Source: a candidate division NC10 bacterium CSP1-5 (GTDB lineage: Bacteria; Methylomirabilota; Methylomirabilia; Methylomirabilales; CSP1-5). Taken from it: a stretch of DNA of 64,000 nucleotides. Below the pieces are notes generated by a model that was not told the DNA's origin, searched no databases, and worked only from the letters and a program-made list of their open reading frames with translations. The position numbers were made by a program, and so were the translations under genes. Each line of letters opens with the position of its first letter. Within the stretch, counting starts at the first letter, position 1. The stretch lies in assembly GCA_001443495.1 (NCBI GenBank), contig LDXR01000006.1, positions 75,059-139,058 on the forward strand, written 5' to 3'. Shown here one piece after another: positions 10,372 to 59,815 of this stretch.

Positions 10372-11358
10372 ATGGGCATCGAGCGGGTAATCTTGGCGGC
10401 GCCGAGGGGGTTCTGCGCGGGCGTGGACCGGGCGATCGATATCGTGAATATCGCCCTGGAACTCTACGGCACCCCGGTGTATGTCCGGAAAGAGATCGTC
10501 CACAACGCCCATGTGGTTCAGGAGCTCCGGGGTCGGGGAGCGGTCTTTGTGGACCAGCTGGACGAGGTGCCTGACGGCGCCCGGGTCATCTTCAGTGCCC
10601 ACGGGATTGGGCCGGCGGTCCGGGCGCAGGCGGCAGCCAAAGGACTGCGGGTCATCGACGCGACCTGTCCCCTGGTCACGAAGGTCCACCTCGAGGCCCT
10701 GAAATTCGCTCGCGAGGGCCGGGTGATCCTCCTCGTGGGACATGCCGGTCACGACGAGGTGATCGGCACCATGGGACACGCGCAGGGACAGATGGTGCTG
10801 GTCGGCTCGGTGGAGGAGGCGGAGCAGGTCCGGGTGCCGGATCCGGAGCGGGTGGCCGTAATCACGCAGACTACGCTGAGCATCGACGATACCCGGGAGA
10901 TCATCGCGGTCCTCAAGCGGCGGTTCCCCAAGGCGGTCTTCCCGCCGAAGGACGACATCTGCTACGCCACGCAGAACCGCCAGATGGCGGTCAAGGAGAT
11001 GGCCGGATCGGTCGATCTACTCCTGGTCATCGGCTCGCCCAACAGCTCGAACTCGATGCGGCTCGTGGAGGTGGCCCAGGCGGTCGGGGTGCGGGCCCAT
11101 CTCATCGATGATGTCTCCGAGATCGACCCTCGCTGGCTCGAGGGGGTGCGGACCGTCGGGATCACCGCGGGTGCCTCGGCCCCCGAGCATCTCGTCCAGG
11201 AGACCGTTGCATTCTTCCAACCGATGGGGGTCTCGCGCGTGGAGGAGCTGGACGGCATCCGAGAGGATGTGGTCTTTGCGCTACCGCCAGAGATCCAGCG
11301 AGACCTGCCGGCAGGGAGCAAGGCGGCGCGATCCCTCAGGGTGTTAGGGCGACCTTGA
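10372..11358 (+). CDS. ispH: 4-hydroxy-3-methylbut-2-enyl diphosphate reductase
   Basis: Last enzyme of the MEP isoprenoid pathway (LytB). This [4Fe-4S] protein reduces HMBPP to IPP and DMAPP in the cytoplasm. The three cluster cysteines are present at Cys15 (PRGFCAGV), Cys99 (DATCPLVTKVH) and Cys197 (DDICYATQNRQ), with the substrate-binding His77 (SAHGIG) and the LVGHAGHDE block. The 328 residues are slightly over the E. coli length. Its 3' end overlaps the end of the convergent dehydrogenase gene by 23 bp. It supplies the C5 units used by the prenyl synthase of the adjacent hopanoid locus. Confidence 0.96.
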   Translation: MGIERVILAAPRGFCAGVDRAIDIVNIALELYGTPVYVRKEIVHNAHVVQELRGRGAVFVDQLDEVPDGARVIFSAHGIGPAVRAQAAAKGLRVIDATCPLVTKVHLEALKFAREGRVILLVGHAGHDEVIGTMGHAQGQMVLVGSVEEAEQVRVPDPERVAVITQTTLSIDDTREIIAVLKRRFPKAVFPPKDDICYATQNRQMAVKEMAGSVDLLLVIGSPNSSNSMRLVEVAQAVGVRAHLIDDVSEIDPRWLEGVRTVGITAGASAPEHLVQETVAFFQPMGVSRVEELDGIREDVVFALPPEIQRDLPAGSKAARSLRVLGRP

Positions 11359-12364
11359 TCGCCTCCCCCCGGGCTATCAACTCGAAGGCCTCTGGCAGAG
11401 AGGAAAGCGCCATCTGGTGCGTCAGGAGGATCTTGGTGTTCACCAGCCCCTGCTCGAGGAGGCCGAGGGCCTCGCGGATGTGGCGGGGGGTATGGTGGAA
11501 GACACCGATCAGCATGAGTTCCTCGTAGTGCATCCGGCGCGTATCCACCCGGAAGCTCGTCCCCGGCTCACACCCCCCAAAGAGAACGACCGTTCCCGCC
11601 TTGCGGGTCACCTCGACCGCCTGCTCCCACACCTCGGGTCTCCCCGTCGCCTCGATGGTGACGGCGGCACCACGGCCCTCGGGGCTTAACCGCCGGACCT
11701 CGGCGAGCACCCGTTCCCCCTGCGCCGCATCGAGGATCTCATCCGCGCCGGCCTCAGCGGCCTTGGTCAACCGGAACTGGCCTTTCCCCACCATGATAAC
11801 CTTGACCCCCTGTCTCTTTGCGAGCTGCGTGAGGAGGAGCCCCATCGGCCCGGCCCCGAAGATGCACAGGGTCTCCCCGAGCCTCACGCCGGAGCGCTCG
11901 ATCCCATGAAGGGAACAGGCGAGCGGCTCGACGAGGGCGGCCTCGGCAAAGCTGAGATGCTCCGGAAGCGGGAGGAGGTTCTGCCGAACGATGCGGGCCG
12001 GGACCCGGATGTACTCGGCATAGGCGCCGTTCAAGAATTGTAAGTCCTCACACAGATTGACCCGTCCCATCCGGCAAGGGAAGCACAAATGGCAGGGGGC
12101 GGAGTTGGCCCCGACCACCCGGTCTCCACCCCGCACCGACTCGACCCCCTCGCCCACCGCTTCGACGATCCCGGCCCATTCGTGGCCAAAGAGGGCGGGG
12201 GTCTTTTTGATCATGACCGGGTGGCCCCGGCGATAGGTCTTGAGGTCCGTGCCGCAGGTCAGCGCTGATCCGATCCGCACCAACACCTCTCCGGGCCCTG
12301 GCGCCGGGGTGGCCACCTCCTCAAACCGGATGTCACCGGGACGATAAAACACCACCGCCTTCAC
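11336..12364 (-). CDS. Zinc-dependent medium-chain alcohol dehydrogenase (first of two)
   Basis: A 342-residue MDR-family NAD(P)-dependent dehydrogenase. The catalytic zinc site (CGTD, GHEWAG), the four-Cys structural zinc lobe (PCHLCFPCRMGRVNLC) and the Rossmann glycine motif (GAGPMG) are all present. It resembles sorbitol/threonine dehydrogenases, but the substrate cannot be set. Its ATG overlaps the end of the next upstream gene by 4 nt (12361-12364), so the pair is translationally coupled. It is the distal end of the hopanoid run; a role in reducing a side-chain or head-group aldehyde is possible but is only inference from context. Confidence 0.88.
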   Translation of the reverse strand: MKAVVFYRPGDIRFEEVATPAPGPGEVLVRIGSALTCGTDLKTYRRGHPVMIKKTPALFGHEWAGIVEAVGEGVESVRGGDRVVGANSAPCHLCFPCRMGRVNLCEDLQFLNGAYAEYIRVPARIVRQNLLPLPEHLSFAEAALVEPLACSLHGIERSGVRLGETLCIFGAGPMGLLLTQLAKRQGVKVIMVGKGQFRLTKAAEAGADEILDAAQGERVLAEVRRLSPEGRGAAVTIEATGRPEVWEQAVEVTRKAGTVVLFGGCEPGTSFRVDTRRMHYEELMLIGVFHHTPRHIREALGLLEQGLVNTKILLTHQMALSSLPEAFELIARGEAIKVALTP

Positions 12365-13407
12365 GGCTGCTCCACCTCCACAAAGACCTTGAGCGCTTCC
12401 TTGTCCCGGAACATGTGCATCCCATGGGTGAGATCGGCCAACGGGACCCTGTGGGTGACGAGCGCCTTCACCCGGACCGTTCGCTCCGCCAACAGGGCGA
12501 GGGCTTCCTGAAGCTCGACGGTGGAGGGGGAATAGCTGCTCACGAGGCTGAGTTCCCGGTGAAAGAACCGGTGGATATCCAGTTCTACCATCGGGTTACC
12601 CGGGTCCGAGGCGAACAACATCACGACGCCACCATCTCTCAGGAGATCGATCGCCGCCCCCAGCACCCGCGGCCCGCCCGCTGTCAGTATAGCAGCATCG
12701 GCGCCGCGACCCTGAGTCACCTCTTGGACGGCCTGGGGCACCTCCGCCTGACCCGGCGTGAGGGTCACGTCCGCCCCGAACGCCTTGGCGCGCTCACAGC
12801 GCTCGCCGATGAGATCAAAACCGATCACCCGGGCTCGATAGAGCTTGAGAACCTGAACGAGCATGAGGCCGATCGAGCCCAATCCATACAGGAGGACCGT
12901 GTCGTGGAGGAGTGGGTTCAGCCGCTTGACCGCCCGGAGGCAGCAGGCAAGCGGTTCGGTAAAGGCGGCCTCTTCGTCCTCAAGATGGGAAGGGATCGGG
13001 AAGGTGGCGTATCGGGTGTTCAGAGCCGGAACCCGGATATACTCGGCGAAGCCTCCCGGGTCGATATTCGACGCCTTGAAGGTGCGGCACATGGAGAAGT
13101 TGCCGTGCCGACAGTAGTGGCAGGCGTAGCAGGGGACGTGGTGAGAGACCACCACCCGCTCGCCGACCGTCCGTTCCTCAATCCCCTCCCCCAGGGCCGC
13201 GACAGTACCGACGACCTCGTGCCCGAGGACGGTGGGAGGTGTGACGAGAGCGTGATCGACCTTGCTCGCATCGGTTGCGCACAGGCCGCACCCCTTGACC
13301 TTGACCAGCAGCTCGCCGGGCCCGACCCTCGGGACGGGGACCGCCTCCACACGGATCTGCCGATTCCCCTGGTAGACCGCCGCTCTCATGGTTTGTGGCA
13401 TGCTCAT
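12361..13407 (-). CDS. Zinc-dependent medium-chain alcohol dehydrogenase (second of two)
   Basis: A 348-residue MDR-family dehydrogenase, a diverged paralogue of its downstream neighbour. The zinc ligands are in CGLCATD and GHEVVG, the structural zinc lobe is PCYACHYCRHGNFSMC, and the cofactor loop is GLGSIG, with an Asp in VIGFDLIG at the end of the second strand, which usually favours NAD. ATG 13407 follows a short gap of 75 bp from hpnD that is filled by a phrase repeat. The substrate is unknown; like its partner it could act on a polyol or aldehyde made in the hopanoid locus. Confidence 0.87.
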   Translation of the reverse strand: MSMPQTMRAAVYQGNRQIRVEAVPVPRVGPGELLVKVKGCGLCATDASKVDHALVTPPTVLGHEVVGTVAALGEGIEERTVGERVVVSHHVPCYACHYCRHGNFSMCRTFKASNIDPGGFAEYIRVPALNTRYATFPIPSHLEDEEAAFTEPLACCLRAVKRLNPLLHDTVLLYGLGSIGLMLVQVLKLYRARVIGFDLIGERCERAKAFGADVTLTPGQAEVPQAVQEVTQGRGADAAILTAGGPRVLGAAIDLLRDGGVVMLFASDPGNPMVELDIHRFFHRELSLVSSYSPSTVELQEALALLAERTVRVKALVTHRVPLADLTHGMHMFRDKEALKVFVEVEQP

Positions 13408-15295: not shown

Positions 15296-16297
15296 TTACC
15301 TCTGTACCCTCCGGCAGGCGTATCCGTGGGTGTAGTACCACTCCACCGCGTCTCGCAGCGCTTCTTCGACCGGTGTCTGGGGTAACTCGAGTTCGCGGAT
15401 GGCCTTGGAGGGGTCAAAGAACATCATCGTGTGCGCCATGCGGACCGCGTTGAGAGGAACCCGCGGCTCCTGGCGGCTGAGTCGCGCGTAGAGCTCGAAG
15501 GCGCACGCGGCGAGGACGGCCACCGGATAGGGAATCCGAAAGCGGGGTGCAGGGACGCCGGAGATCTGCTCGAGTATCCCGAAGATTGCGCGCAGGGTGA
15601 GATTCCGGTTCCCCAGGATATACTTTTCGCCGATCCGTCCTCTCTGGGCCGCCAGGATGTGGCCCCGAGCCACATCCTGGACGTGGACCAGATTGAGACC
15701 CGTGTGGAGGTAGCCGAACATCTGCCCGTTGAGATAATCGACAATCATCCGGCCGGTGGGGGTGGGTTTGACATCCCACGGTCCCACAGGGGCAGAGGGA
15801 TTGACGATGACCACCGGAAGCCCCAGGCCGGCGATCCGTTCTGCCTCCCGCTCGGCCAGAAACTTGGACCGCTTGTAGGGGCCGACCATCTGTGCCAGGG
15901 TGACCGGCGTCTCCTCGGTTCCTGGCAGGCCATTTTTGGGGATCCCCAGGGCCCCCACCGTGCTCGTGTAGACGACGCGCTCTATCCCCGTCTCGAGCGC
16001 GACCTCCAGGATGTTGCGGGTCCCCTCCACATTGGCCCGGTACGTTGCGGCCGCGTCCCGTGAGGAGAGGTTGTACCGGGCGGCGACGTGGTACAGGACC
16101 TGACACCCCTTGAGGGCGCGCCGGAGACCCTCGCGCTCCGCGAGGTCTCCCTGGACCTCCTCGATCTCGAGGCCCTCGATGCCGGCCCGTGGACTCGACG
16201 GTCTCACCAGCACGCGGACGGCGACCCCGTCTTGAAGCAGCTCTCGGACGAGGTTTGCCCCAACAAAGCCGGTCGCCCCGGTGACGAAGGCTCTCAC
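15296..16297 (-). CDS. hpnA: Hopanoid-associated sugar epimerase/dehydratase-like protein HpnA
   Basis: A 333-residue extended short-chain dehydrogenase/reductase. The N-terminal NAD(P) motif is GATGFVGANL and the catalytic triad includes the YKRSK tetrad block, as in HpnA proteins of hopanoid loci, whose exact reaction is not established. I chose GTG 16297 because it overlaps the TGA of the upstream gene (GTGA) and has GGGAG nine bases ahead; a longer frame from ATG 16324 is possible. It is linked upstream to the HpnL-like gene and downstream to the prenyl synthase. Confidence 0.88.
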   Translation of the reverse strand: MRAFVTGATGFVGANLVRELLQDGVAVRVLVRPSSPRAGIEGLEIEEVQGDLAEREGLRRALKGCQVLYHVAARYNLSSRDAAATYRANVEGTRNILEVALETGIERVVYTSTVGALGIPKNGLPGTEETPVTLAQMVGPYKRSKFLAEREAERIAGLGLPVVIVNPSAPVGPWDVKPTPTGRMIVDYLNGQMFGYLHTGLNLVHVQDVARGHILAAQRGRIGEKYILGNRNLTLRAIFGILEQISGVPAPRFRIPYPVAVLAACAFELYARLSRQEPRVPLNAVRMAHTMMFFDPSKAIRELELPQTPVEEALRDAVEWYYTHGYACRRVQR

Positions 16298-17274
16298 GTC
16301 TTTTGCTCCCTCTGCCCGGGCCATCCAGTCCGTGTAAGGACCAGGAGGCCGATGGCGACCCACAGGATCTCCCGCGCCCTGCGCAAGAGACTGAAGGCCA
16401 TGGCGGCCTCTGCGCTCATGCCGAGACCGAGGAAGATCAAGACGGTTCCCCCCTCTTGGGCTCCCAGGTTGGCCGGGATGAAGAAGGTCGCCGCCTTGAC
16501 CCCGAGGAGGAGCGCCTGGATCACCATCGCCGTCGGGACGTCCACGCGGCTTCCCATCGCCCACAGGAAACCGTACGCCTCGACGGCGGTGGTCAGCCAG
16601 CCGAGGAGCGAAAAGAGCAGGCACCCGACCAGAGGGCTGCGGCTTCGGTAGAGCGTGGCGATCTTGTCATCCAGGATCTCGAGCCCCTCTCGTTTCGCCA
16701 TCCAGGCCTCACCCCTGGCACCGAGCCGATAGATGAGCCGGTGGAGGAGCGAGAACAGCCCCCGCGTCTGGCTATAGTAGAGGACCAGGACCACGAGGGC
16801 CAGGAAGAGGCCCACCCCGAATCCCCCGAGCAGCGCCGATGCGAACTCCTGTGTTCTCGGGAGGGCACCGGCCAGCCCCAGAAAGATAAAAAGACAGTAC
16901 GCGAACGTCGTCATGGTCTTTGTGACCACGACCGAGGCGAGGCCGTCGCTTAACGGAACGCCGAGGCGGCGGAGCAGCGAGGCCTTGAGCGGCTCCCCGC
17001 CCAGGTAGGCGAGGGGTGTGATGAGGTTGACCGCCTCTCCCGCCGCCCGGATCAGGAAGGTGTGTGCGAGGGGTACCCCGGGAGGCAGGGTCAGCCACCA
17101 GCCGATGGAAAAGAAGACAGCCATGACCACGGAGGGAAGGAGGAGGGAGGGGAAGCTCCATCCGACCTGCCGGACCTGGGCGAGCGTCTCCTCAAGCCCC
17201 ACCTGCCCGAGGATCCACAGGAAGAGGAAGAGACCGAGGCAGAGGGCGATCAGTGTGCCCCAGGGCCTCTTCAC
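16294..17274 (-). CDS. HpnL-like integral membrane protein (lysylphosphatidylglycerol synthase TM family)
   Basis: A 326-residue membrane protein of the UPF0104/LPG-synthase transmembrane family, with about eight hydrophobic helices. Members in hopanoid loci are called HpnL and are proposed to move lipids across the inner membrane. Family landmarks are LAYLGGEPLKASLL and PANLGAQEGGTVLIFLGLG. The gene starts 12 nt after the decarboxylase beta subunit and overlaps hpnA by 4 nt. Its place between a lipid head-group module and hopanoid genes fits a flippase for the modified lipid, which is inference. Confidence 0.8.
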   Translation of the reverse strand: MKRPWGTLIALCLGLFLFLWILGQVGLEETLAQVRQVGWSFPSLLLPSVVMAVFFSIGWWLTLPPGVPLAHTFLIRAAGEAVNLITPLAYLGGEPLKASLLRRLGVPLSDGLASVVVTKTMTTFAYCLFIFLGLAGALPRTQEFASALLGGFGVGLFLALVVLVLYYSQTRGLFSLLHRLIYRLGARGEAWMAKREGLEILDDKIATLYRSRSPLVGCLLFSLLGWLTTAVEAYGFLWAMGSRVDVPTAMVIQALLLGVKAATFFIPANLGAQEGGTVLIFLGLGMSAEAAMAFSLLRRAREILWVAIGLLVLTRTGWPGQREQKT

Positions 17275-17286
17275 GCCCCCCCTCCG

Positions 17287-17856
17287 CTAATCGCTGCCTG
17301 CAGCCACCTGCCGGAGGCGCGCGGCGATGGCCTCGGGGTGAAGCGATACCCGGGGAATCTCTTCCCGCCGGTCCCCGATCTCGAGTTGAACGAGGAGAAA
17401 GGCAGGGCCAGGCCCGCCGAGGAGCAGGGGAAGCACCGCCTCGAGCTCCTCCCGTCGGGCCACGCGATACACCAGGCGGTACCCGGCCGCCTTCGCCATC
17501 TGTTCGAGAGGGACCTTTGCCGAGAAGGTCGGTTGATTCCCGGTGGAGCCGTGGGCGGAGTTGTCGAGGACGATGTGAATGAAATTCGGCGGGGCGTGAA
17601 AGCTGGCGGTGGGGAGGACGCCCAGATTCATGAGGAGATTGCCATCTCCGTCCAAGACCACGACCCGTCGCTCGGGCCGGCTCAGGGCGAGCCCCAGCCC
17701 AATGGAGGGCGCGAGGCCCATGGAGCCGATCATATAAAAATTCTCTGTCCGATCCCGGGCGACCATGGTCTCCCGAGAGATGAACCCGTTGGCGGCGATC
17801 ACGATCTCTCGATCGAGCCGCTCCAGGATCACCTGAATGGCCTCTTCGCGCATCAT
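17287..17856 (-). CDS. TPP-dependent decarboxylase, beta subunit (phosphonopyruvate/sulfopyruvate type)
   Basis: A 189-residue subunit holding the C-terminal, diphosphate-binding half of a thiamine-diphosphate enzyme. The Mg-TPP motif is GDGNLLMNLG (residues 70-79) with LDNSAHGSTGNQPT at 97-110, the pattern shared by phosphonopyruvate decarboxylase and sulfopyruvate decarboxylase beta subunit. Its ATG overlaps the stop of the alpha-subunit gene by 4 nt (ATGA), so the two are made together. Given a PEP mutase gene at 58.9 kb, phosphonopyruvate to phosphonoacetaldehyde is the favoured reaction; sulfopyruvate or another 3-substituted pyruvate is the alternative. Confidence 0.82.
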   Translation of the reverse strand: MMREEAIQVILERLDREIVIAANGFISRETMVARDRTENFYMIGSMGLAPSIGLGLALSRPERRVVVLDGDGNLLMNLGVLPTASFHAPPNFIHIVLDNSAHGSTGNQPTFSAKVPLEQMAKAAGYRLVYRVARREELEAVLPLLLGGPGPAFLLVQLEIGDRREEIPRVSLHPEAIAARLRQVAAGSD

Positions 17857-19292
17857 GTCACAATCCCCTTTCTCAGGAGCAGGGCGACCGGGGTCCGGTC
17901 CTGCTTCATGCGGTCCGCGGCCCAGCGGATGGCCTGCGGAATCGTCTCCTCCTCCAGGATCTGGTAGGGAATCCGCAGGGTCTCGAGGAGCGTCGGGGTG
18001 ATCTGGCCCGTCAAGAGGTGCTCTGGCGCGTCCTTGCCCCCGTATCCGCGCCAGCCGATCAGGAGCAGGCAGGGGATCCGGTAGAGCAGGGCCAGCGAGG
18101 AGAGGGCATCGAGGCTCTGCCCCAGACCCGAGTTCTGCATCAGGACGACCGGCTGCTTGCCGCCGAGGTAGGCCCCTGTGGCCATGCCCACCGCCGCGTC
18201 CTCCCGCGCCGCCTGGACGTAGCCATGCTCGGCCAGGAGGGTGAAGAGTCCTTTCATGAGCGAGCAGGGGACCCCGGTGAAGAAGTCAAAGCCGGCTTCC
18301 ATGAGGAGCCGGACGAACTCGTGCGCCGTGACCCCTGTCGCCCTCGGTTGCGGCCTCGCTGCCGGCCGCCCTCGGTCGGGGACGGTCTGGTCCATCTGCG
18401 GTCGGCGAGATCGCGTGACGACCGGTGCCGCGAACGTCGGTCGCGGAAAATCCTGAAGGATCAGGCGGTCGATCTCTTCCTCGAGTCGATGACAGAACTC
18501 GATCTCCTTGATGGCGCGTTGGTACTGGTCGATGCCGAGGTAGCGGAGAAACCGGCGGATGCCCCAGTCCACCGCCTCGTACGGGACCGTGGGGGCTGCC
18601 ATGTCCCCCATGCGGATGATGAGGGACTTGACGAGCGGCTCGGGCTCGAGCGGGGTGTTCCAGAGCGGATGCTCGCCGATCTGGGCGCGAAACCGGGTGA
18701 TATGCTCTTCCCGGTAGAATTCCCCGCGGAATTTCATGAAGTCGATTGCTGTCCAGAAGTCCCACCGCGCCGAGGCGAAGGCACAATCGGGAAGGAAGAA
18801 CTGGATCGGATTGATCCAGACGTCGAAATAGGGATGGCTCAGGAGGCTCACGGCCGCGGCGAGGCGATCCGTGCCGGGCCGGCCCACCTGTGGGTCCCCC
18901 ACCACGGTCGCTGCCGTCTCAAGATGGTGGGCAAAGACCGGGGCCTCCTCGACGATGCGCCGCAGCGCGTAGATCTTCCGCTCGACCAGATGCCAGCCCT
19001 TCTCATCCGAGACGGGAAGGATGTCGAGATGCGCCTCGAGCTCCTGGATCGCGCTCTCCTTGCGGTCATGCAGGGCGCCGAAATCGCGGCGCGTGAACTC
19101 GCCGCTCGGAAAGACCTCGAGCGCGACGTCCAGGAAGTCGCGGAAGTTGTCCAGGGTATGGGCGTACACCCCGTGGTAATGGGTCGGCTGCCTGTCGATG
19201 ATGGGCAGGCTCGCGTAGATGGCCGCGCCCGGGTCGAGGCCGCAGCTCTTCAGCAGCTTGGTCGCGAGGATCGCGTGCGTCCCCCAGTCCAT
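17853..19292 (-). CDS. Fusion: unknown His-rich domain plus TPP decarboxylase alpha subunit
   Basis: A 479-residue protein. Residues ~310-479 are the N-terminal TPP-binding half of a phosphonopyruvate/sulfopyruvate decarboxylase, with the catalytic-Glu region REDAAVGMATGAYLGG and MQNSGLGQSLDALSSL. The first ~300 residues form a separate domain I cannot identify: it opens WGTHAILA, has the His cluster THYHGVYAHTLDN, HH near residue 123 and LLSHPYFDVW, and looks like an all-helical metal-dependent hydrolase, with only a faint resemblance to zinc phospholipase C. ATG 19292 has AGGGAGG about eight bases upstream and starts 2 nt after the previous gene stops. The two domains are joined by a Pro/Arg-rich linker. 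Stand-alone alpha subunits are about 170 residues, so the fusion is unusual. Confidence 0.78.
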   Translation of the reverse strand: MDWGTHAILATKLLKSCGLDPGAAIYASLPIIDRQPTHYHGVYAHTLDNFRDFLDVALEVFPSGEFTRRDFGALHDRKESAIQELEAHLDILPVSDEKGWHLVERKIYALRRIVEEAPVFAHHLETAATVVGDPQVGRPGTDRLAAAVSLLSHPYFDVWINPIQFFLPDCAFASARWDFWTAIDFMKFRGEFYREEHITRFRAQIGEHPLWNTPLEPEPLVKSLIIRMGDMAAPTVPYEAVDWGIRRFLRYLGIDQYQRAIKEIEFCHRLEEEIDRLILQDFPRPTFAAPVVTRSRRPQMDQTVPDRGRPAARPQPRATGVTAHEFVRLLMEAGFDFFTGVPCSLMKGLFTLLAEHGYVQAAREDAAVGMATGAYLGGKQPVVLMQNSGLGQSLDALSSLALLYRIPCLLLIGWRGYGGKDAPEHLLTGQITPTLLETLRIPYQILEEETIPQAIRWAADRMKQDRTPVALLLRKGIVT

Positions 19293-19294
19293 CG

Positions 19295-20503
19295 CTAGGC
19301 CTCCCTGTCGGCAGAGACCGGCCTCGGGGCCATCTCGGGATGCTCCTGGCGCTCGGCCCGCCTGTCCCGAATGAGGAGGGCGAGGACCGACGGCCAGAAG
19401 AGGTTGATCCCGATCGCCGCGGCCCAGAGAAACCACTCGAGCCGGTCCACCAGCGCTGCGAGAAGGACGATCAGGGCAAAGTCCCGGTGCATGACCTGGG
19501 CGAGAAGCCGATTGACCGGGCGGCGCCGGATCATGTACGCCCCCATGGTCCCGGCCGCCGTAGCTGCGCCCACGACGAGCAGCGCGCCCACGATGAGCAC
19601 GCTGGGCTCTGGCCTTCTCAGATACGCCGCCCGGACGATAGCGGCAAAGATCCCCACGTGCACCAGGTTGTCCAGGACATAATCCATCACGCCGCCCCAT
19701 CGGCTCTCCTGCAGCCTCAGGCGGGCCAGCATCCCGTCTAGCAGGTCGGTGAGATAGGCGAGGACGAAGAGCATCCCCCCGACGACTGTCCAGGCGTAAT
19801 CGCCCTGCCACAAGCACGCGATGGCGCCGAGCCCGATGAAAAATCCTGCCAGGGTGAGCTGGTTGGGGGTGACCCGCGTGTCGACCAGGGCACGCATGAC
19901 TGGGAAGAGGAGGCGTCTCGAGCGGCGGATCAGCCAGCTATCGGTTGGCTTCCCCAGGGCCCGATAGAGGGCGGCCGCTGCCCTCTCGCTGGTCGTGTTG
20001 GCGAGATCGAGGCACACTGCCGCCCCCGAAAGGGGGACCTGGACTGGAGGCTGCAGGCGTCCGGTCGGGACCGCGGGGCTCCCGAGTGCCACCGGAGCAT
20101 CGGAACCCTGGCCCGCCGGGACCACGAACGGTGCCCCGGGATGATAGGCGGCCCTGAGTTCCGTGAGCAGGGGTGGGTTCAGCACGGTGCTCGCGCGGAT
20201 GAAGAAGCACGGGGGGATCCCGTTGCCGCCCACGGCTTTGCTCACCGCTGCCGGTTCCGTGTCGACCCACTCGATCCGACTCTCGGATAGTCGCTCGCCC
20301 ACCAGGGCCTGCAGCCGGGGGGCCGCGTCGCCGGCGCAGATGATCACGCGGCGCACGCCGGCGCGCTGTGTACTGACAAGGATGCGCCTGAGCAGGGAGA
20401 CCCCGCCCACGCGCGCGGCGGCAACAGACCAGTCCCCGTGTGTCGGGGGGAGGACGATGGCCGTTCTTCCGACGTCATCCATTGGGGCGCTAGCGTGAGG
20501 CAT
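19295..20503 (-). CDS. CDP-alcohol phosphotransferase with N-terminal nucleotidyltransferase-like domain
   Basis: A 402-residue protein in two parts. Residues ~210-390 form a membrane CDP-alcohol phosphotransferase, with the complete motif Asp253-x2-Asp256-Gly257-x2-Ala260-Arg261-x8-Gly270-x3-Asp274-x3-Asp278. This enzyme class moves a phospho (or phosphono) alcohol from CMP onto a lipid or polyol hydroxyl. Residues ~12-180 have a nucleotidyltransferase-like layout (TAIVLPP, LLRRILVSTQRAGVRRVIICAGD) but lack the Gly-rich/Arg nucleotide loop, so that half may be inactive or regulatory. The architecture recalls fused inositol-phosphate cytidylyltransferase/DIPP synthases. It overlaps the upstream cytidylyltransferase gene by 14 nt; ATG 20503 was preferred over 20482 because GAGGA lies ahead of it. 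Confidence 0.83.
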   Translation of the reverse strand: MPHASAPMDDVGRTAIVLPPTHGDWSVAAARVGGVSLLRRILVSTQRAGVRRVIICAGDAAPRLQALVGERLSESRIEWVDTEPAAVSKAVGGNGIPPCFFIRASTVLNPPLLTELRAAYHPGAPFVVPAGQGSDAPVALGSPAVPTGRLQPPVQVPLSGAAVCLDLANTTSERAAAALYRALGKPTDSWLIRRSRRLLFPVMRALVDTRVTPNQLTLAGFFIGLGAIACLWQGDYAWTVVGGMLFVLAYLTDLLDGMLARLRLQESRWGGVMDYVLDNLVHVGIFAAIVRAAYLRRPEPSVLIVGALLVVGAATAAGTMGAYMIRRRPVNRLLAQVMHRDFALIVLLAALVDRLEWFLWAAAIGINLFWPSVLALLIRDRRAERQEHPEMAPRPVSADREA

Positions 20504-21236
20504 GGGTTGCAACAATCCTCGGGAGGACTTCCTCCCGGGCCCGATCGAGCTCTTTCGGCCCATCGATGTCGATCCACGAGAGTCCCGTGGTCACCGAACA
20601 GTGAACGGGGACACCCTTGGCGATCAACCGTTCCAGGGCGGCCGTGTAGTACTCGTTGGTCGCCCCTTCCTCCGTCAGCCGCTCGATTTCGGCGAAGAAG
20701 AGCCGCCCGCCGTCGCTGGAAAACCGCGCGATGCCGAGAAAGGTCCCCGTCACCTCGGCGGGAGGGACCGTCTTGCTCACCGCCAGGACCCGGGTGCCTC
20801 GGGCCGCGACTTTCTTGCTCTCGGCGTGGATCTCTTCGCTCACGGCGAGGCAGATTTCTCCTGGTCCTTCGAGGCAGGCCTTCAGGATGTCCGGATGGAA
20901 GAGGATGTCGGCGTAGCAGATGACGAAGGGGGATCCGAGGAGCCGTTCGCGGCTCACCCAGACCGAGTATAAATTATTCGTGTCGGCGTAGCGAGGATTC
21001 TCCACGACGGTGACCGGGAAGGGGCGCCCGCCGCCCGTCCCCCGCGCGAACGCACGGATCTGCTCCCCCAGGTAGCCGGTGACGATCACCGCCTCCGCGA
21101 TCCGCTGCGCCGCCAGGGCGTCCAGCAGGTAGGCGAGGATCGGTCTGCCCCCCACATCCAAGAGACATTTGGGGGTCTCCACCGTGAAAGGCCGGAGGCG
21201 GGTCGCCTGGCCTGCCGCGAGCACGAGCGCCCTCAC
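20490..21236 (-). CDS. LicC/PntC-like CTP:phospho(no)-alcohol cytidylyltransferase
   Basis: A 248-residue cytoplasmic nucleotidyltransferase. The nucleotide loop is LAAGQATRLRPFT (residues 7-19) with Lys23 in TPKCLLDVGG, the metal Asp is in YAD (108-110), and the segment DTNNLYSVW (85-93) is characteristic of the LicC/PntC group that activates phosphocholine or 2-aminoethylphosphonate with CTP. GTG 21236 overlaps the stop of hpnG by 4 nt (GTGA). Next to a CDP-alcohol transferase and a phosphonopyruvate-type decarboxylase, it most likely makes a CMP-activated head group. A glucose-1-phosphate type substrate cannot be excluded. Confidence 0.82.
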   Translation of the reverse strand: MRALVLAAGQATRLRPFTVETPKCLLDVGGRPILAYLLDALAAQRIAEAVIVTGYLGEQIRAFARGTGGGRPFPVTVVENPRYADTNNLYSVWVSRERLLGSPFVICYADILFHPDILKACLEGPGEICLAVSEEIHAESKKVAARGTRVLAVSKTVPPAEVTGTFLGIARFSSDGGRLFFAEIERLTEEGATNEYYTAALERLIAKGVPVHCSVTTGLSWIDIDGPKELDRAREEVLPRIVATHASR

Positions 21237-21970
21237 GGTCGCAGCTCCCGTAAGAGAGCGGCAATGGCCCGAGCGAGGTGTCGGGTGGCGATCCGGAGCC
21301 TCGCCGCCACGTGGAGCATCGGGGGAATCCACGACGGATGCCGGAGGAGAGAGGCGGCGACGGCGATGGGCTTGAGGCGGCCGTCCGACGCCAGGAAGGC
21401 GCTTCCCCGTGCCGCCCAGGGCTCGGCGGCGGTATCCGAGACGACCCTGATCGCGAGGAACGGGATCCCTCGCCACTCCGCTGCTTCGGCCAGATAGGCG
21501 CTCTCCATGTCCACAGCCACGATCGGCCCGCCCGACCGCCTCTCAGCCGTCTCGGCTGGCGTCATGACTTTATCGACCGTGAGGATGGTCCCGACATGGA
21601 AGGGGAGCCCGATGGCCTTGGTGGCGCCCGTCGCGGTTTCGAGCAGGAAGGGGTCAGCGGCGAAGGATTCGGCATGTCGAATCACCTGAGAGGCGACGAC
21701 GAGGTCCCCGAGAACCGCCTCGGACCCCACCCCCCCACAGAAGCCGGCCGACAGGAGCACGCTGGGCGTGCCAAGCGAGGCGACGGCCCGGTCCGCTCCA
21801 CGCGCACCCATCCCCGCCTGCAGCAGGAGGATTCGATTCCCCTCATCGCGGTACCGGAGGAGGCCATCGACATTCCGGTCTCTCCGAAGCCCGAGATGCT
21901 TGACGAGCGGGGCCGCCTCCACCCCGAGGGCCACTACGATCGTAGCCGGGCCATGGGCCAATCGAGACAT
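21233..21970 (-). CDS. hpnG: Hopanoid-associated nucleoside phosphorylase HpnG
   Basis: A 245-residue phosphorylase of the PNP/MTAP fold. In hopanoid makers HpnG removes adenine from adenosylhopane (the HpnH product) to give phosphoribosylhopane. Visible features are VVALGVEAAPLVKHLG, the Gly-rich SAGFCGGVG, and the nucleoside-binding VAVDMESAYLAEAAEWRGIPFLAIRVVSD block with the key Met-Glu pair. ATG 21970 has GAGG six bases upstream. It is linked on one side to the 130-residue protein and hpnH and on the other, by a 4-nt overlap, to the cytidylyltransferase. Confidence 0.9.
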   Translation of the reverse strand: MSRLAHGPATIVVALGVEAAPLVKHLGLRRDRNVDGLLRYRDEGNRILLLQAGMGARGADRAVASLGTPSVLLSAGFCGGVGSEAVLGDLVVASQVIRHAESFAADPFLLETATGATKAIGLPFHVGTILTVDKVMTPAETAERRSGGPIVAVDMESAYLAEAAEWRGIPFLAIRVVSDTAAEPWAARGSAFLASDGRLKPIAVAASLLRHPSWIPPMLHVAARLRIATRHLARAIAALLRELRP

Positions 21971-21983
21971 CCTTGCCTCACCC

Positions 21984-22376
21984 CTATAGATCCCCCCGCG
22001 CCTCGGCCTCGGCGCGGAGCCGCTCCGCCTCGGCCTGGCGTAACTTGTCGCTCTTGGTTGCCCACGCCTCCCAGGATTTCCCAAAGGCGGTATCTTCCCC
22101 CGTGAAGTCCACGGCCACAATGTCGGCGTAGGGGATGGTCTGGGTACCAGGGGCTCCCTGGGGGAAGAACTGGAGATACGCCTGAGATCCGCGCGCCTGG
22201 CGGTTAAAGATGTACCCTTCGATGCGCGTGCCATCCTTCAGTTCGAGGGCGACATCGCCCCGATAATCAAAGGCCGCCTCGATGACCTCCTGAAGTTCCG
22301 TGGGATTCGCGGGACGGAACGAGCGCCCTTCCCACTGGGGTCGTTCCGAGCCGTGTGCCTTCGTCTCCTGAGGCAT
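21984..22376 (-). CDS. Unknown 130-residue protein between hpnH and hpnG
   Basis: I do not recognise a named family. The middle (~residues 40-95) looks like a small beta-barrel of the Sm/LSm type: VALELKDGTRIEGYIFNR, then IPYADIVAVDFTGED, followed by a Trp-rich turn (GKSWEAW) and a charged C-terminal helix rich in Arg, Glu and Ala. No signal peptide or membrane helix is present, so it should be cytoplasmic. It sits 13 nt before hpnG and 16 nt after hpnH in the same run, which argues for a role with these two enzymes, for example as a regulatory or scaffold protein. Confidence 0.75.
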   Translation of the reverse strand: MPQETKAHGSERPQWEGRSFRPANPTELQEVIEAAFDYRGDVALELKDGTRIEGYIFNRQARGSQAYLQFFPQGAPGTQTIPYADIVAVDFTGEDTAFGKSWEAWATKSDKLRQAEAERLRAEAEARGDL

Positions 22377-22392: not shown

Positions 22393-23406
22393 TCACGAAT
22401 TCGGCATCAGCGTCACCCTGACCGTCCGGGCAAAGCCCGACCAGGAGCTGAACGTATCATCGACGGCGGTGGCCTCGTAGCCGCAGTGCACCATGCAGTC
22501 GGCGCACTTGTCGTTGCGGCCGGTCCCGTACCGGTCCCAGTCGGTGGTCTCCATCAATGCCTTGTAGCTGGGGGCGTAGCCATCTTGCAGCAGATAGCAG
22601 GGTCGCTGCCACCCAAAGATGTTGTATGTGGGATTTCCCCAGGGCGTGCACTGGTAATCGCGCTTCCCCATGAGGAATTCGAGGAACAGGGGCGACTGGT
22701 TGAAGCGCCAGTGTTTCTTGCGATCCTTGAGGATGGCCCCAAAGAGCTCTGTGACGCGATGGCGCCGGAGGAAGTGCTCCTGATCGGGGGCCTTCTGGTA
22801 GCTGTACCCCGGGGAGATCATCATCCCTTCGACCCCGAGTTCCATCATCCTGTCAAAGAATGTCCGGACCCGCTCCGGGTTGGCGCCGTCGAAGAGGGTC
22901 GTGTTGGTCGTGACCCGAAAGCCGCGCGCCAGCGCTACCTTGATGGCCCTCAGCGCGATATCGTACACCCCATCCCGGCAGACGGCGATGTCGTGCTCTT
23001 CTCTGAGCCCGTCCATGTGAATGCTGAAGGTCAGATACGTGGATGGCGTGTACTCGTCAAGCTTGCGCTCCAGCAAGAGCGCGTTGGTGCAGAGGTAGAC
23101 GTACTTCTTCTGCGCAACGAGCCCCCGGACAATCTCGGGCATGTCGGGATGAATCAGGGGTTCGCCCCCGGGGATACTCACGATCGGCGCCCCGCATTCA
23201 TCGGCGACGGCCCAGCACTCCTCGGGTGTCAGGCGTTTCTGCAGGACGTGCTCGGGGTATTGAATCTTGCCGCAGCCGGCACAGGCCAGGTTGCACCGAA
23301 AGAGGGGCTCGAGCATCAGCACGAGGGGATACCTGGTATTCCCCTTGAGCTTTTGGCGGAGCACGTACAGGGTAACGGCGAGCGACTGCGAGAGCGGAAC
23401 TGCCAT
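22393..23406 (-). CDS. hpnH: Hopanoid radical SAM protein HpnH (adenosylhopane synthase)
   Basis: A 337-residue radical SAM enzyme that adds the 5'-deoxyadenosyl group to diploptene, starting the C35 side chain of extended hopanoids. The cluster motif is C38-x3-C42-x2-C45 (CNLACAGC), followed by the SAM-binding GGEP. The C-terminal part carries further cysteines (CTPW, CYLL, CADCMVHCGYEA) as in HpnH. The normal length and place, directly before the 130-residue protein and hpnG, support the call. ATG 23406 is the first good start. Confidence 0.94.
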   Translation of the reverse strand: MAVPLSQSLAVTLYVLRQKLKGNTRYPLVLMLEPLFRCNLACAGCGKIQYPEHVLQKRLTPEECWAVADECGAPIVSIPGGEPLIHPDMPEIVRGLVAQKKYVYLCTNALLLERKLDEYTPSTYLTFSIHMDGLREEHDIAVCRDGVYDIALRAIKVALARGFRVTTNTTLFDGANPERVRTFFDRMMELGVEGMMISPGYSYQKAPDQEHFLRRHRVTELFGAILKDRKKHWRFNQSPLFLEFLMGKRDYQCTPWGNPTYNIFGWQRPCYLLQDGYAPSYKALMETTDWDRYGTGRNDKCADCMVHCGYEATAVDDTFSSWSGFARTVRVTLMPNS

Positions 23407-32942: not shown

Positions 32943-34865
32943 ATGGCACCTCCCAGTATTGAAGAGAGTCGCACCGTGCAACGGGTCGAAGAAGCCATAG
33001 GCCGGGCGCAGGAGCATCTCCTCAGCCTGCAGCATCCCGAGGGGTACTGGCTCGGCGAACTCGAGGCGGATAGCACCCTGACCTCGGAGTACATCATGCT
33101 CCGTCACTTCCTGCGCCGGGTGGATCGGGACCGGGAACGCAAGGTCGCCAACTACCTGAAGGCCAGGCAGCTCCCCGATGGGGGGTGGGATCTGTTTCCG
33201 GGAGGCGCAAGCGATATCAGTGCCACGGTGAAGGCCTACTTCGCCTTCAAGCTCATGGGGTACTCACCCGATGACGCCTTTATGCGCCGCGCCCGGGAGA
33301 ACATTGTCGCCAAGGGCGGCGTGACCAAGGCCAACGTCTTTACCAAGATCGCCTTGGCCCTGTTCGGACAGTATGACTGGCGGGGGGTCCCCAGTATGCC
33401 GGTCGAGATCATCCTCTTCCCCCGCTGGTTCTACTTTAACCTCGCCGAGGTCTCGTACTGGTCCCGAACGGTCATCGTCCCCCTCCTGATCCTGATGGAT
33501 CTGAAGCCGGTCTGTCGGATCCCGGCGGCGGCCGGTATCGATGAGCTGTACGTGCCGTCCCGGGCCGCGGCCGATCTGCGATTTCCCCGCAGCGAACGAC
33601 TCTTCACGTGGAAGAATTTCTTCATCACGCTCGATCGGCTGCTCCACGGACTCGAGCGCTGGACCCCCCGCCCCTTCCGGGCACGGGCGCGGCAGCAGGC
33701 CTTGACCTGGATTTTGACGCGGATGGGCCCCGGGGGACTCGGGGGGATCTATCCGGCCATGGCCAATGCGGTGATGGCGCTACACACCTTGGGCTACTCC
33801 GAGGACCACCCCAAGATGGCCGAAGGCTTGAAGGAGATCGAACTCTTGGGGATCGAGGAGGCCGATCGGTTCCATCTGCAGCCCTGTCTCTCACCCGTCT
33901 GGGATACCCCGCTGGCGGTGAACGCCTTGGTCGAATCTGCCCTGCCCCGGGACCACCCCGCGCTCCTGAGGGCCGCCACGTGGCTGCTCCAGCAGCAGAG
34001 CCTGCGGCGTGGCGACTGGCAGGTAAAGCGGCCGGAGCTGCCACCGGGGGGATGGCCGTTTCAGTTTCGGAACGACTTCTATCCCGACACCGATGACACC
34101 GCCGTAGTGCTGATGGCCCTCAAGAAGATCGCGCTCCCGGATCGGGCGGACATCCGGCAAGCCATCGAGACCGGACTCGAGTGGTTTCTCGGGATGCAAT
34201 CGAGGAACGGGGGCTGGGGCTCTTTCGACGTGGACAACACCCGGCTCCTCTTGAATAACATTCCCTTCGCCGACCACGGTGCCTTGCTCGATCCGCCCAC
34301 CGAGGATCTGGCGGGACGCGGGCTGGAGATGCTCGGGACCTACGAGGAGACCCTCGCGCATCCCCGGGCGGCCCGGGCGTTGGACTTCGTCAAGCGCACC
34401 CAAGATCCGAGGGGCGGCTGGTATGGACGATGGGGGGCCAACTATATCTACGGGACCTGGTCGGTGCTGCGCGGGCTCCAGGCCATCGGCGAGGATCTGA
34501 ACGCCTCGTACATCCGGCGCGCCGTCCGATGGCTCGAGAGTTGCCAGAATGCGGACGGCGGCTGGGGGGAGACCCTGCTGAGCTATGCGGACCCCACCCT
34601 CGCCGGCAAAGGCGAGAGCATCCCCAGCCAGACTGCGTGGGCCCTCCTCGGCCTCCTCGCGGCCGGAGAGGCGCAGAACCCGGCGGTGGCGAGAGGGATC
34701 CGGTTTCTCATCGAGACGCAGCGATCGGACGGCTCGTGGGACGATCCCTTCTGGAACGCGACCGGCTTTCCCCGCGTCTTCTTCCTCAAGTATCACCTGT
34801 ATCCGGTGTATTTTCCCCTCTGGGCGCTCGGCGTCTACCGCACCGCGCTGCAGCGCAGCCTGTAG
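32943..34865 (+). CDS. shc: Squalene-hopene cyclase
   Basis: A 640-residue monotopic membrane enzyme that cyclises squalene to hopene/hopanol. The catalytic acid motif is Asp382-Thr-Asp384-Asp385 (PDTDDTA), and several QW repeats are visible (for example LPDGGWDLF, SRNGGWGSFD, DPRGGWYG, NADGGWGE, RSDGSWDD). Length is normal. ATG 32943 follows GGGAGGAGAG. It is the last gene of the plus-strand export run, so cyclisation and transport are co-expressed, while side-chain enzymes are on the opposite strand. Confidence 0.97.
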   Translation: MAPPSIEESRTVQRVEEAIGRAQEHLLSLQHPEGYWLGELEADSTLTSEYIMLRHFLRRVDRDRERKVANYLKARQLPDGGWDLFPGGASDISATVKAYFAFKLMGYSPDDAFMRRARENIVAKGGVTKANVFTKIALALFGQYDWRGVPSMPVEIILFPRWFYFNLAEVSYWSRTVIVPLLILMDLKPVCRIPAAAGIDELYVPSRAAADLRFPRSERLFTWKNFFITLDRLLHGLERWTPRPFRARARQQALTWILTRMGPGGLGGIYPAMANAVMALHTLGYSEDHPKMAEGLKEIELLGIEEADRFHLQPCLSPVWDTPLAVNALVESALPRDHPALLRAATWLLQQQSLRRGDWQVKRPELPPGGWPFQFRNDFYPDTDDTAVVLMALKKIALPDRADIRQAIETGLEWFLGMQSRNGGWGSFDVDNTRLLLNNIPFADHGALLDPPTEDLAGRGLEMLGTYEETLAHPRAARALDFVKRTQDPRGGWYGRWGANYIYGTWSVLRGLQAIGEDLNASYIRRAVRWLESCQNADGGWGETLLSYADPTLAGKGESIPSQTAWALLGLLAAGEAQNPAVARGIRFLIETQRSDGSWDDPFWNATGFPRVFFLKYHLYPVYFPLWALGVYRTALQRSL

Positions 34866-58939: not shown

Positions 58940-59815
58940 ATGTCCAGAGCGAAGAAATTGAGAGAGCTATTTACCCGGCCCGGCCTCGTCCGGATGGTCG
59001 GGGCCCATAACGGCCTGGGCGCGAAGCTCGTCGAGCGGGCCGGATTTGAGGGGGTCTGGTCGAGCAGCCTGGAGGTCTCCGCGTCCCACGGCATCCCGGA
59101 CGCCAGCCTCCTCTCCATGAGTCAGTACCTGGAGGCGGCTCGAAGCATGGTCGAGGTGACCTCGATTCCCGTGGTCGTCGATGGGGATACAGGCTACGGC
59201 AACGCGAACAACGTCTTCTACACGGTCGAGCGGTTTGAGGAGGCGGGTGTCGCTGGCATCACCTTCGAGGATAAGAAGTTCCCCAAGGATAACAGCCTCC
59301 TGCCCGGGGGCCGTCAGGCCCTCGCCGGGGTCGAGGAGTTCGCGGGCAAGATTGAAGCGGCCAAGGCCGCGCGGCGGTCCCCAGATTTCGTGATCATCGC
59401 CCGGGTCGAGGCGCTGATTGCCGGCTGGGGGCAGGAAGAGGCTCAGGGGCGGGCGAACCGCTATGTTGAGGCGGGCGCCGACGCCATCCTGATCCACTCC
59501 AAATCGCCAGACCCAAAGGAGATTATCGAGTTCGTGACCCGGTGGCAGGGCCGGGCGCCGCTGGTCCTGGTCCCGACGACCTATCCAAGCCTCACCGAGA
59601 AGCGGATTGCAGAGCTCGGCAAGGTGAAGATGGTCATCTACGCCAATCATGGTCTCCGCACCGCCATCCGTGCCATGGAAGAAGTCCTGGCCAAGATCCG
59701 CCAGGACGGGGGCATCCACGACCTCGATCACCTGCTGGTCCCAATGAAGCATGTCTTCGACCTGCAGGATGTCCCCAAAATGAAAGAGCGGGAGCAACGG
59801 TTCTTGCGAGATTGA
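58940..59815 (+). CDS. pepM: Phosphoenolpyruvate mutase (phosphonate biosynthesis)
   Basis: A 291-residue member of the isocitrate lyase/PEP mutase superfamily. It converts PEP to phosphonopyruvate, the entry step of nearly all C-P bond natural products. The diagnostic PepM signature EDK-x5-NS is present at residues 110-119 (EDKKFPKDNS), which separates it from lyases and hydrolases of the superfamily, and the metal site is DGDTGYG (81-87). ATG 58940 has AGAGG just upstream. It starts 40 bp after rnpB. Its expected partner decarboxylase is not adjacent, but a phosphonopyruvate-type decarboxylase pair lies at 17.3-19.3 kb. Confidence 0.92.
   Translation: MSRAKKLRELFTRPGLVRMVGAHNGLGAKLVERAGFEGVWSSSLEVSASHGIPDASLLSMSQYLEAARSMVEVTSIPVVVDGDTGYGNANNVFYTVERFEEAGVAGITFEDKKFPKDNSLLPGGRQALAGVEEFAGKIEAAKAARRSPDFVIIARVEALIAGWGQEEAQGRANRYVEAGADAILIHSKSPDPKEIIEFVTRWQGRAPLVLVPTTYPSLTEKRIAELGKVKMVIYANHGLRTAIRAMEEVLAKIRQDGGIHDLDHLLVPMKHVFDLQDVPKMKEREQRFLRD

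Follow-up and report, generated by a model that had tools for sequence, protein, structure and literature searches.

The alpha half of a phosphonopyruvate/sulfopyruvate-type decarboxylase (Ppd) is preceded here, in the same reading frame, by a further domain, which raises the question of what this domain does and why it should be joined to a decarboxylase. The fusion had been proposed in a first-pass annotation of the window, i.e. the 64,000-nucleotide stretch of the candidate division NC10 bacterium CSP1-5 analysed here, and it is real: the minus strand carries a 479-residue open reading frame at exactly the position given there, 17853-19292, and the plus strand frame over the same positions is meaningless. 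The parts of the fusion and the genes around it are the following.

15296-16294, minus strand: HpnA hopanoid-associated sugar epimerase (TIGR03466, 447 bits, above cut-off)
16294-17274, minus strand: HpnL-like flippase/LPG-synthase transmembrane protein (TIGR03476, 8e-50)
17287-17856, minus strand: PpdB, beta half of the decarboxylase (TIGR03297, 8.7e-52; TIGR03846, 9.2e-52)
17853-18326, minus strand: PpdA, alpha (N-terminal TPP-binding) half of the decarboxylase (TIGR03297, 1.3e-39; TIGR03845, 1.1e-35)
18327-18446, minus strand: low-complexity linker of about 40 residues, aligning with the spacer of contig L037, with non-coding-like codon-position GC
18447-19292, minus strand: Ndom, the N-terminal part of the fusion, a 282-residue all-alpha domain (AlphaFold2 pLDDT 88, pTM 0.89)
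19295-20563, minus strand: CDP-alcohol phosphatidyltransferase with an N-terminal extension, presumed to transfer a head group (PF01066, 1.2e-12; syntenic in relatives)
20490-21236, minus strand: MobA/LicC/PntC-like nucleotidyltransferase, a presumed phosphonate cytidylyltransferase (PF12804, 2.9e-13)
21233-22234, minus strand: HpnG-like phosphorylase, hopanoid side chain (TIGR03468, 1.7e-33, below cut-off)
22393-23406, minus strand: HpnH adenosyl-hopene transferase (TIGR03470, 550 bits, above cut-off)
32943-34865, plus strand: squalene-hopene cyclase homologue (homologues adjoin Ndom in L015, L016 and L042-L048)
58940-59815, plus strand: PEP-mutase-like gene with the EDKxxxxxNS motif, about 40 kb from the cluster and unlinked to it

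Residues 323-478 of the fusion match the Ppd/ComD alpha family (TPP_enzyme_N in Pfam, 1.5e-8), and the PpdB frame follows downstream with a 4-base overlap. Both halves match Ppd/ComDE family models significantly; as single halves they score below the full-length cut-off. Regarding the substrate, gene context favours phosphonopyruvate over sulfopyruvate or another 2-oxo acid, as genes for an aminoethylphosphonate (AEP) transaminase and a cytidylyltransferase adjoin Ppd in relatives. No AEP transaminase was found linked to the window cluster, and for this reason two zinc alcohol dehydrogenase genes that overlap each other and lie downstream of the hopanoid operon (11336-13407, minus strand) may encode aldehyde reductases. 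Between HpnH and HpnG lies a conserved 130-residue open reading frame without a Pfam match (21984-22376, minus strand).

The origin of the fusion can be followed in the closest relative (71% identity), which belongs to the NC10 genome G004 (contig L037), the one congeneric genome that also carries Ndom. There, the domain ends in a TAG codon, followed by a spacer and then by PpdA as its own gene. In the alignment, the window reads TTC at the position of this TAG, lacks the stop-bearing stretch of the spacer, and reads ACA at the ATG proposed as the start of the relative's PpdA; the spacer is translated in frame as a Pro/Arg/Ala-rich linker. GC contents at the three codon positions are flat in the linker (0.75/0.72/0.78 versus 0.66/0.40/0.86 in the domain), as expected of a spacer that is read through. 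A sequencing artefact was ruled out as the source of the fusion: the window is distinguished from the unfused L037 by multiple substitutions plus an indel, and because more than one base differs, a single sequencing error is no explanation. Ndom is a reading frame of its own in all 22 other genomes in which it was found and is fused in the window alone. Judged from these alignments, the fusion is a local and recent event. It speaks for proximity of function and is not itself the conserved arrangement, since the two parts are separate genes in every relative. The annotation had named separate genes in no shared context, or unconserved histidines, as evidence against a link; the genes are indeed separate, with a strongly shared context and most of the histidines conserved. 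Its reading of the N-terminal part as a distinct uncharacterised domain functionally tied to the decarboxylase stands, the genes being adjacent in many phyla even where they are unfused.

Searches with Ndom returned no known family. Residues 1-282 matched nothing in Pfam at a threshold as loose as E 10, queries of 282 and 305 residues gave nothing above curated cut-offs in Pfam, NCBIfam and PHROG, 20 family members gave only chance matches to family models, and comparison with PDB sequences gave no significant match. Profile matches in the PDB to A2 (best E 0.0007) were discarded, as their targets are designed or coiled helical proteins. The AlphaFold2 model is a confident all-helical fold, and neither this model nor that of the Salinibacillus relative matched PDB or viral libraries significantly with Foldseek and VIA-align. 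Of the folds named for comparison at first pass (zinc phospholipase C, here together with P1 nuclease, HD-domain and ferritin-like), none was recognisable in structure searches or, for S1/P1, in hhalign. Cas3 HD reached a Z of only 2.6, without a significant Foldseek match to HD or ferritin-like folds. A distant membership of Ndom in the trizinc phospholipase C/P1 nuclease fold, with a role as a phosphoesterase, is very improbable. Its N-terminal WG..H and SH...D motifs do resemble those of S1/P1, and the structure rows for 4cwm and 4cxv are collinear at low scores (Z of only 2.2-2.3), but hhalign against ten S1/P1 nucleases returned a probability of 0.1%, equal to unrelated controls, and Foldseek gave no significant match. 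Zinc phospholipase C proper, compared through Pfam only, did not match.

The relatives of Ndom in the 22 other genomes share 20-71% identity and belong to Methylomirabilota/NC10, Omnitrophota, Nitrospirota, Planctomycetota including anammox bacteria, and Bacillaceae. The family is rare: it occurs in 5 of 95 NC10-phylum genomes, 6 of 392 Planctomycetota, 3 of 77 genomes in the phylum of G099 and, as clear cases, 3 of 334 Omnitrophota. A search of viral contigs found no relatives, nor did a search of plasmids for the Bacillaceae form. Six residues (H6, S152, Y155, D184, K222 and R227) are invariant in 26 sequences; D33, H40, R112 and H153 are 96% conserved, and H38, H45 and D157 are 88% conserved. 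Among the ordered His/Asp motifs to which the first-pass annotation had drawn attention, conservation extends to WGTH (H6), HYH (H38, H40), YAH (H45) and SH.YFD (H153, D157), and the HH pair at 122-123 is unconserved. Together with the basic residues, these His and Asp suit a metal/phosphate site, and Ndom may be a metal-dependent enzyme that binds a phospho or phosphonate group. NC10 family f3 and one planctomycete carry tandem copies A and B (L047, L015, L016), which group by copy and not by organism in the tree; copy B lacks W3, H45 and D157, which suggests a heterodimer with one altered subunit. The sequence from G1134 sits on a branch of length 4.4 and has none of D33, H40 and H153, so that its position in the tree cannot be relied on.

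Gene neighbourhoods give a more specific view of function. In NC10, Omnitrophota, Nitrospirota and Planctomycetota we found what we call type-1 loci, with the gene order Ndom, PpdA, PpdB, AEP transaminase, cytidylyltransferase and CDP-alcohol transferase, beside hopanoid genes; two Nitrospirota carry the start of this set, Ndom-PpdA. In five Omnitrophota the set is preceded by squalene-hopene cyclase and HpnH; one contig stops after PpdB, and where the contig extends, homologues of HpnL, HpnA and HpnG come next. In NC10 f3, HpnH and HpnG precede the set. An HpnI-like glycosyltransferase lies next to the set in G873, G916 and G940, and HpnK is also near it in G873, G940 and G962, with HpnI and HpnK of G873 scoring above cut-off. 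In anammox bacteria the set from Ppd to transaminase, cytidylyltransferase and transferase is intact and Ndom lies elsewhere, next to a Fur gene. On the three anammox contigs (L038, L039, L040) the Fur-family regulator comes first, then Ndom; a PHP phosphoesterase gene adjoins Ndom in L040 and lies further downstream, past rubrerythrin genes, in L038 and L039.

By their scores the type-1 transaminases are PhnW-AepZ, in several cases above cut-off, with 1m32 as the best solved relative (6e-64). The closest solved structures of the relatives' cytidylyltransferases are LicC and a PntC-transaminase fusion (6pd1), and they are sometimes fused to a transaminase likewise. All steps after phosphonopyruvate are thus assigned, and Ndom is the sole unassigned gene common to the type-1 clusters. 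It lies beside Ppd, in one case as a fusion. Most simply read, Ndom would provide the substrate of Ppd. Our best, though tentative, proposal, which may be correct, is that Ndom represents a new phosphonate family which in type-1 loci supplies phosphonopyruvate in place of PEP mutase. In this case, Ndom would act directly before Ppd, and Ppd would pull the unfavourable phosphonopyruvate-forming reaction forward. The AEP transaminase, the PntC-like cytidylyltransferase and the CDP-alcohol transferase would then build a head group of aminoethylphosphonate and transfer it to an acceptor, probably a hopanoid. The window would have two consecutive steps merged into one polypeptide, which the fusion to PpdA fits. 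Ndom may thereby be a missing enzyme of phosphonate biosynthesis.

It is unlikely that the type-1 clusters make phosphoethanolamine and no phosphonate at all, with a Ppd-like enzyme acting on 3-phosphohydroxypyruvate, the transaminase yielding phosphoethanolamine, the cytidylyltransferase yielding CDP-ethanolamine, and Ndom as an auxiliary. Such a pathway would not need PEP mutase, which would explain its absence, and among solved structures the cytidylyltransferase is, by E-value, closest to the phosphocholine enzyme LicC. However, the transaminases match phosphoserine aminotransferase only at 1e-7, far from their match to AEP transaminase, and Ndom also occurs in undoubted phosphonate clusters with HppE or an MPnS-like enzyme.

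These clusters are of two further types. Type 2 is fosfomycin-type and was found in two Bacillaceae genomes, Salinibacillus kushneri (L051) and G655 (L085), in the order Pmm-synthase-like gene, Ndom, HppE, amino acid kinase (AA kinase), TMPK, HIBDH and PepM. Its HppE is most similar to the enzyme from Pseudomonas (5u55, 1.2e-40). The kinase in these putative fosfomycin-type clusters is FomA/isopentenyl-phosphate-kinase-like. Type 3, in G1134 (L110:8228-12555), consists of a cytidylyltransferase, a cupin closest to methylphosphonate synthase (6b9s, 1e-39), Ndom, an iron alcohol dehydrogenase closest to the phosphonate-associated TIGR03405, and a CDP-alcohol transferase, possibly a methylphosphonate- or hydroxyethylphosphonate-lipid cluster. 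As both types hold Ndom, the hopanoid clusters are not the only basis for its link to phosphonates. We conclude that Ndom is the first described member of a new, previously undescribed helical protein family associated with phosphonate biosynthesis genes.

The same loci bear on the idea that Ndom is non-catalytic and serves Ppd as a scaffold or channelling partner, stabilising or protecting its aldehyde product. An all-helical domain that is fused or adjacent to PpdA, with tandem diverged copies in NC10 f3 and a planctomycete, could act in this way; two cluster types carry Ndom without an adjacent Ppd, and its best-conserved residues are polar ones typical of active sites, which makes this idea rather improbable.

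The proposal that Ndom acts in place of PEP mutase depends on where the latter, the sole well-known enzyme that forms the C-P bond, occurs. PEP mutase went undetected in 16 of the 18 genomes with Ndom and Ppd, most of these genomes being incomplete metagenome assemblies (MAGs): none was detected in five Omnitrophota, two Nitrospirota, the planctomycete G104 (7.2 Mb), G096, G873, G916, G940 and G962, nor in G004 (68% complete), G008 (96%) and G018 (95%), the last two being NC10 genomes. Identical searches recover true PepM with the EDKxxxxxNS motif in G000 (the window genome), G097 (Scalindua), G106, G655 and G1134; weak matches in other genomes lack the motif. PEP mutase is not linked to Ndom in the window genome and Scalindua, lies inside the cluster in both Bacillaceae, and is also present in G1134. 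These five genomes indicate that Ndom is not a simple replacement of PEP mutase everywhere. The window's PEP-mutase-like gene at 58940-59815 scores 341 bits as phosphonopyruvate hydrolase and 310 bits as PEP mutase, both below cut-off, with the motif EDKKFPKDNS. It adjoins an SDR gene and acyl-CoA synthetase genes, at a distance from other phosphonate genes. Ndom itself had no match to the isocitrate-lyase superfamily including PepM and no EDKxxxxxNS motif, and is thus at most an analogue of PepM.

Three further observations speak against the replacement: the unassigned step in Bacillaceae follows PEP mutase and is not C-P formation, Ndom and the Ppd cluster are separated in anammox genomes, and the window cluster has no linked AEP transaminase. 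Since the window genome and the genomes with type-2 and type-3 clusters do have a PEP mutase, and the unassigned step in Bacillaceae is that of PsfC in Pseudomonas (PMC12871164), related but different phosphonate reactions are almost as likely. In such a case, Ndom would be a phosphonate metalloenzyme catalysing, e.g., the oxidative decarboxylation of 2-phosphonomethylmalate (the PsfC step) in Bacillaceae and a related transformation elsewhere, with type-1 phosphonopyruvate coming from an unrecognised source; we regard this as possible, if somewhat doubtful. The two Bacillaceae clusters show no other candidate for this step, and Ndom keeps its conserved His/Asp set. PsfC is a dinuclear iron enzyme converting Pmm to 3-OBPn (PMC12871164). 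On the other side, Bacillaceae Ndom is just 20-27% identical to that of type 1, and type-1 loci show no apparent substrate of the 2-phosphonomethylmalate kind. Omnitrophota and anammox bacteria, moreover, have an anaerobic lifestyle, for which an O2-dependent reaction would be odd. The broader claim, that Ndom is a second, unrelated family of C-P-forming enzymes that makes phosphonopyruvate or a direct Ppd substrate without PEP mutase and feeds the modification of hopanoids with aminoethylphosphonate in anaerobes and in bacteria of candidate phyla, is doubtful.

PEP mutase catalyses the first step of most known phosphonate pathways, and its gene is the target when genomes are mined for phosphonates (PMC12871164). 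Clusters that hold only the downstream steps would be missed in this way. If Ndom replaces PEP mutase, there would be another route to C-P bonds; if not, it would still be a recurrent enzyme candidate in AEP, fosfomycin-type and methylphosphonate-like pathways. From the type-1 clusters one would also expect phosphonate head groups to occur on hopanoids, lipids whose fossils serve as biomarkers; no report of phosphonate-bearing hopanoids was found in the literature searched.

Among known systems, the pnt (phosphonyl tailoring) clusters combine Ppm, Ppd, AEPT and PntC (Rice et al. 2019, PMC6697681), and ppd and aept are commonly associated with ppm (Rice et al., PMC6697681). Type-1 clusters share Ppd, the AEP transaminase and the PntC-like cytidylyltransferase, sometimes transaminase-fused, followed by a transferase. 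They differ in that Ppm is absent from the cluster, and PEP mutase usually from the genome, that Ndom adjoins Ppd, and that hopanoid genes surround them; the window also lacks a linked AEPT. In the case of the pseudomonad fosfomycin pathway (PepM, Pmm synthase, PsfC, HppE), the Bacillaceae loci likewise have PepM, a Pmm-synthase-like gene, a dehydrogenase and HppE, but Pmm synthase and HppE have an Ndom gene between them, and a PsfC-like (PHP) gene was not seen in the cluster. PepM (TIGR02320) would share its product, phosphonopyruvate, with Ndom under our tentative proposal. Its fold is a TIM barrel and EDKxxxxxNS is its motif, whereas Ndom is all-alpha and has no sequence similarity to it. 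Finally, as in the two-subunit Ppd described by TIGR03297 and TIGR03845/TIGR03846, the alpha and beta halves in the window are encoded by separate, overlapping reading frames; what sets the window apart is the additional 282-residue N-terminal domain on the alpha half.
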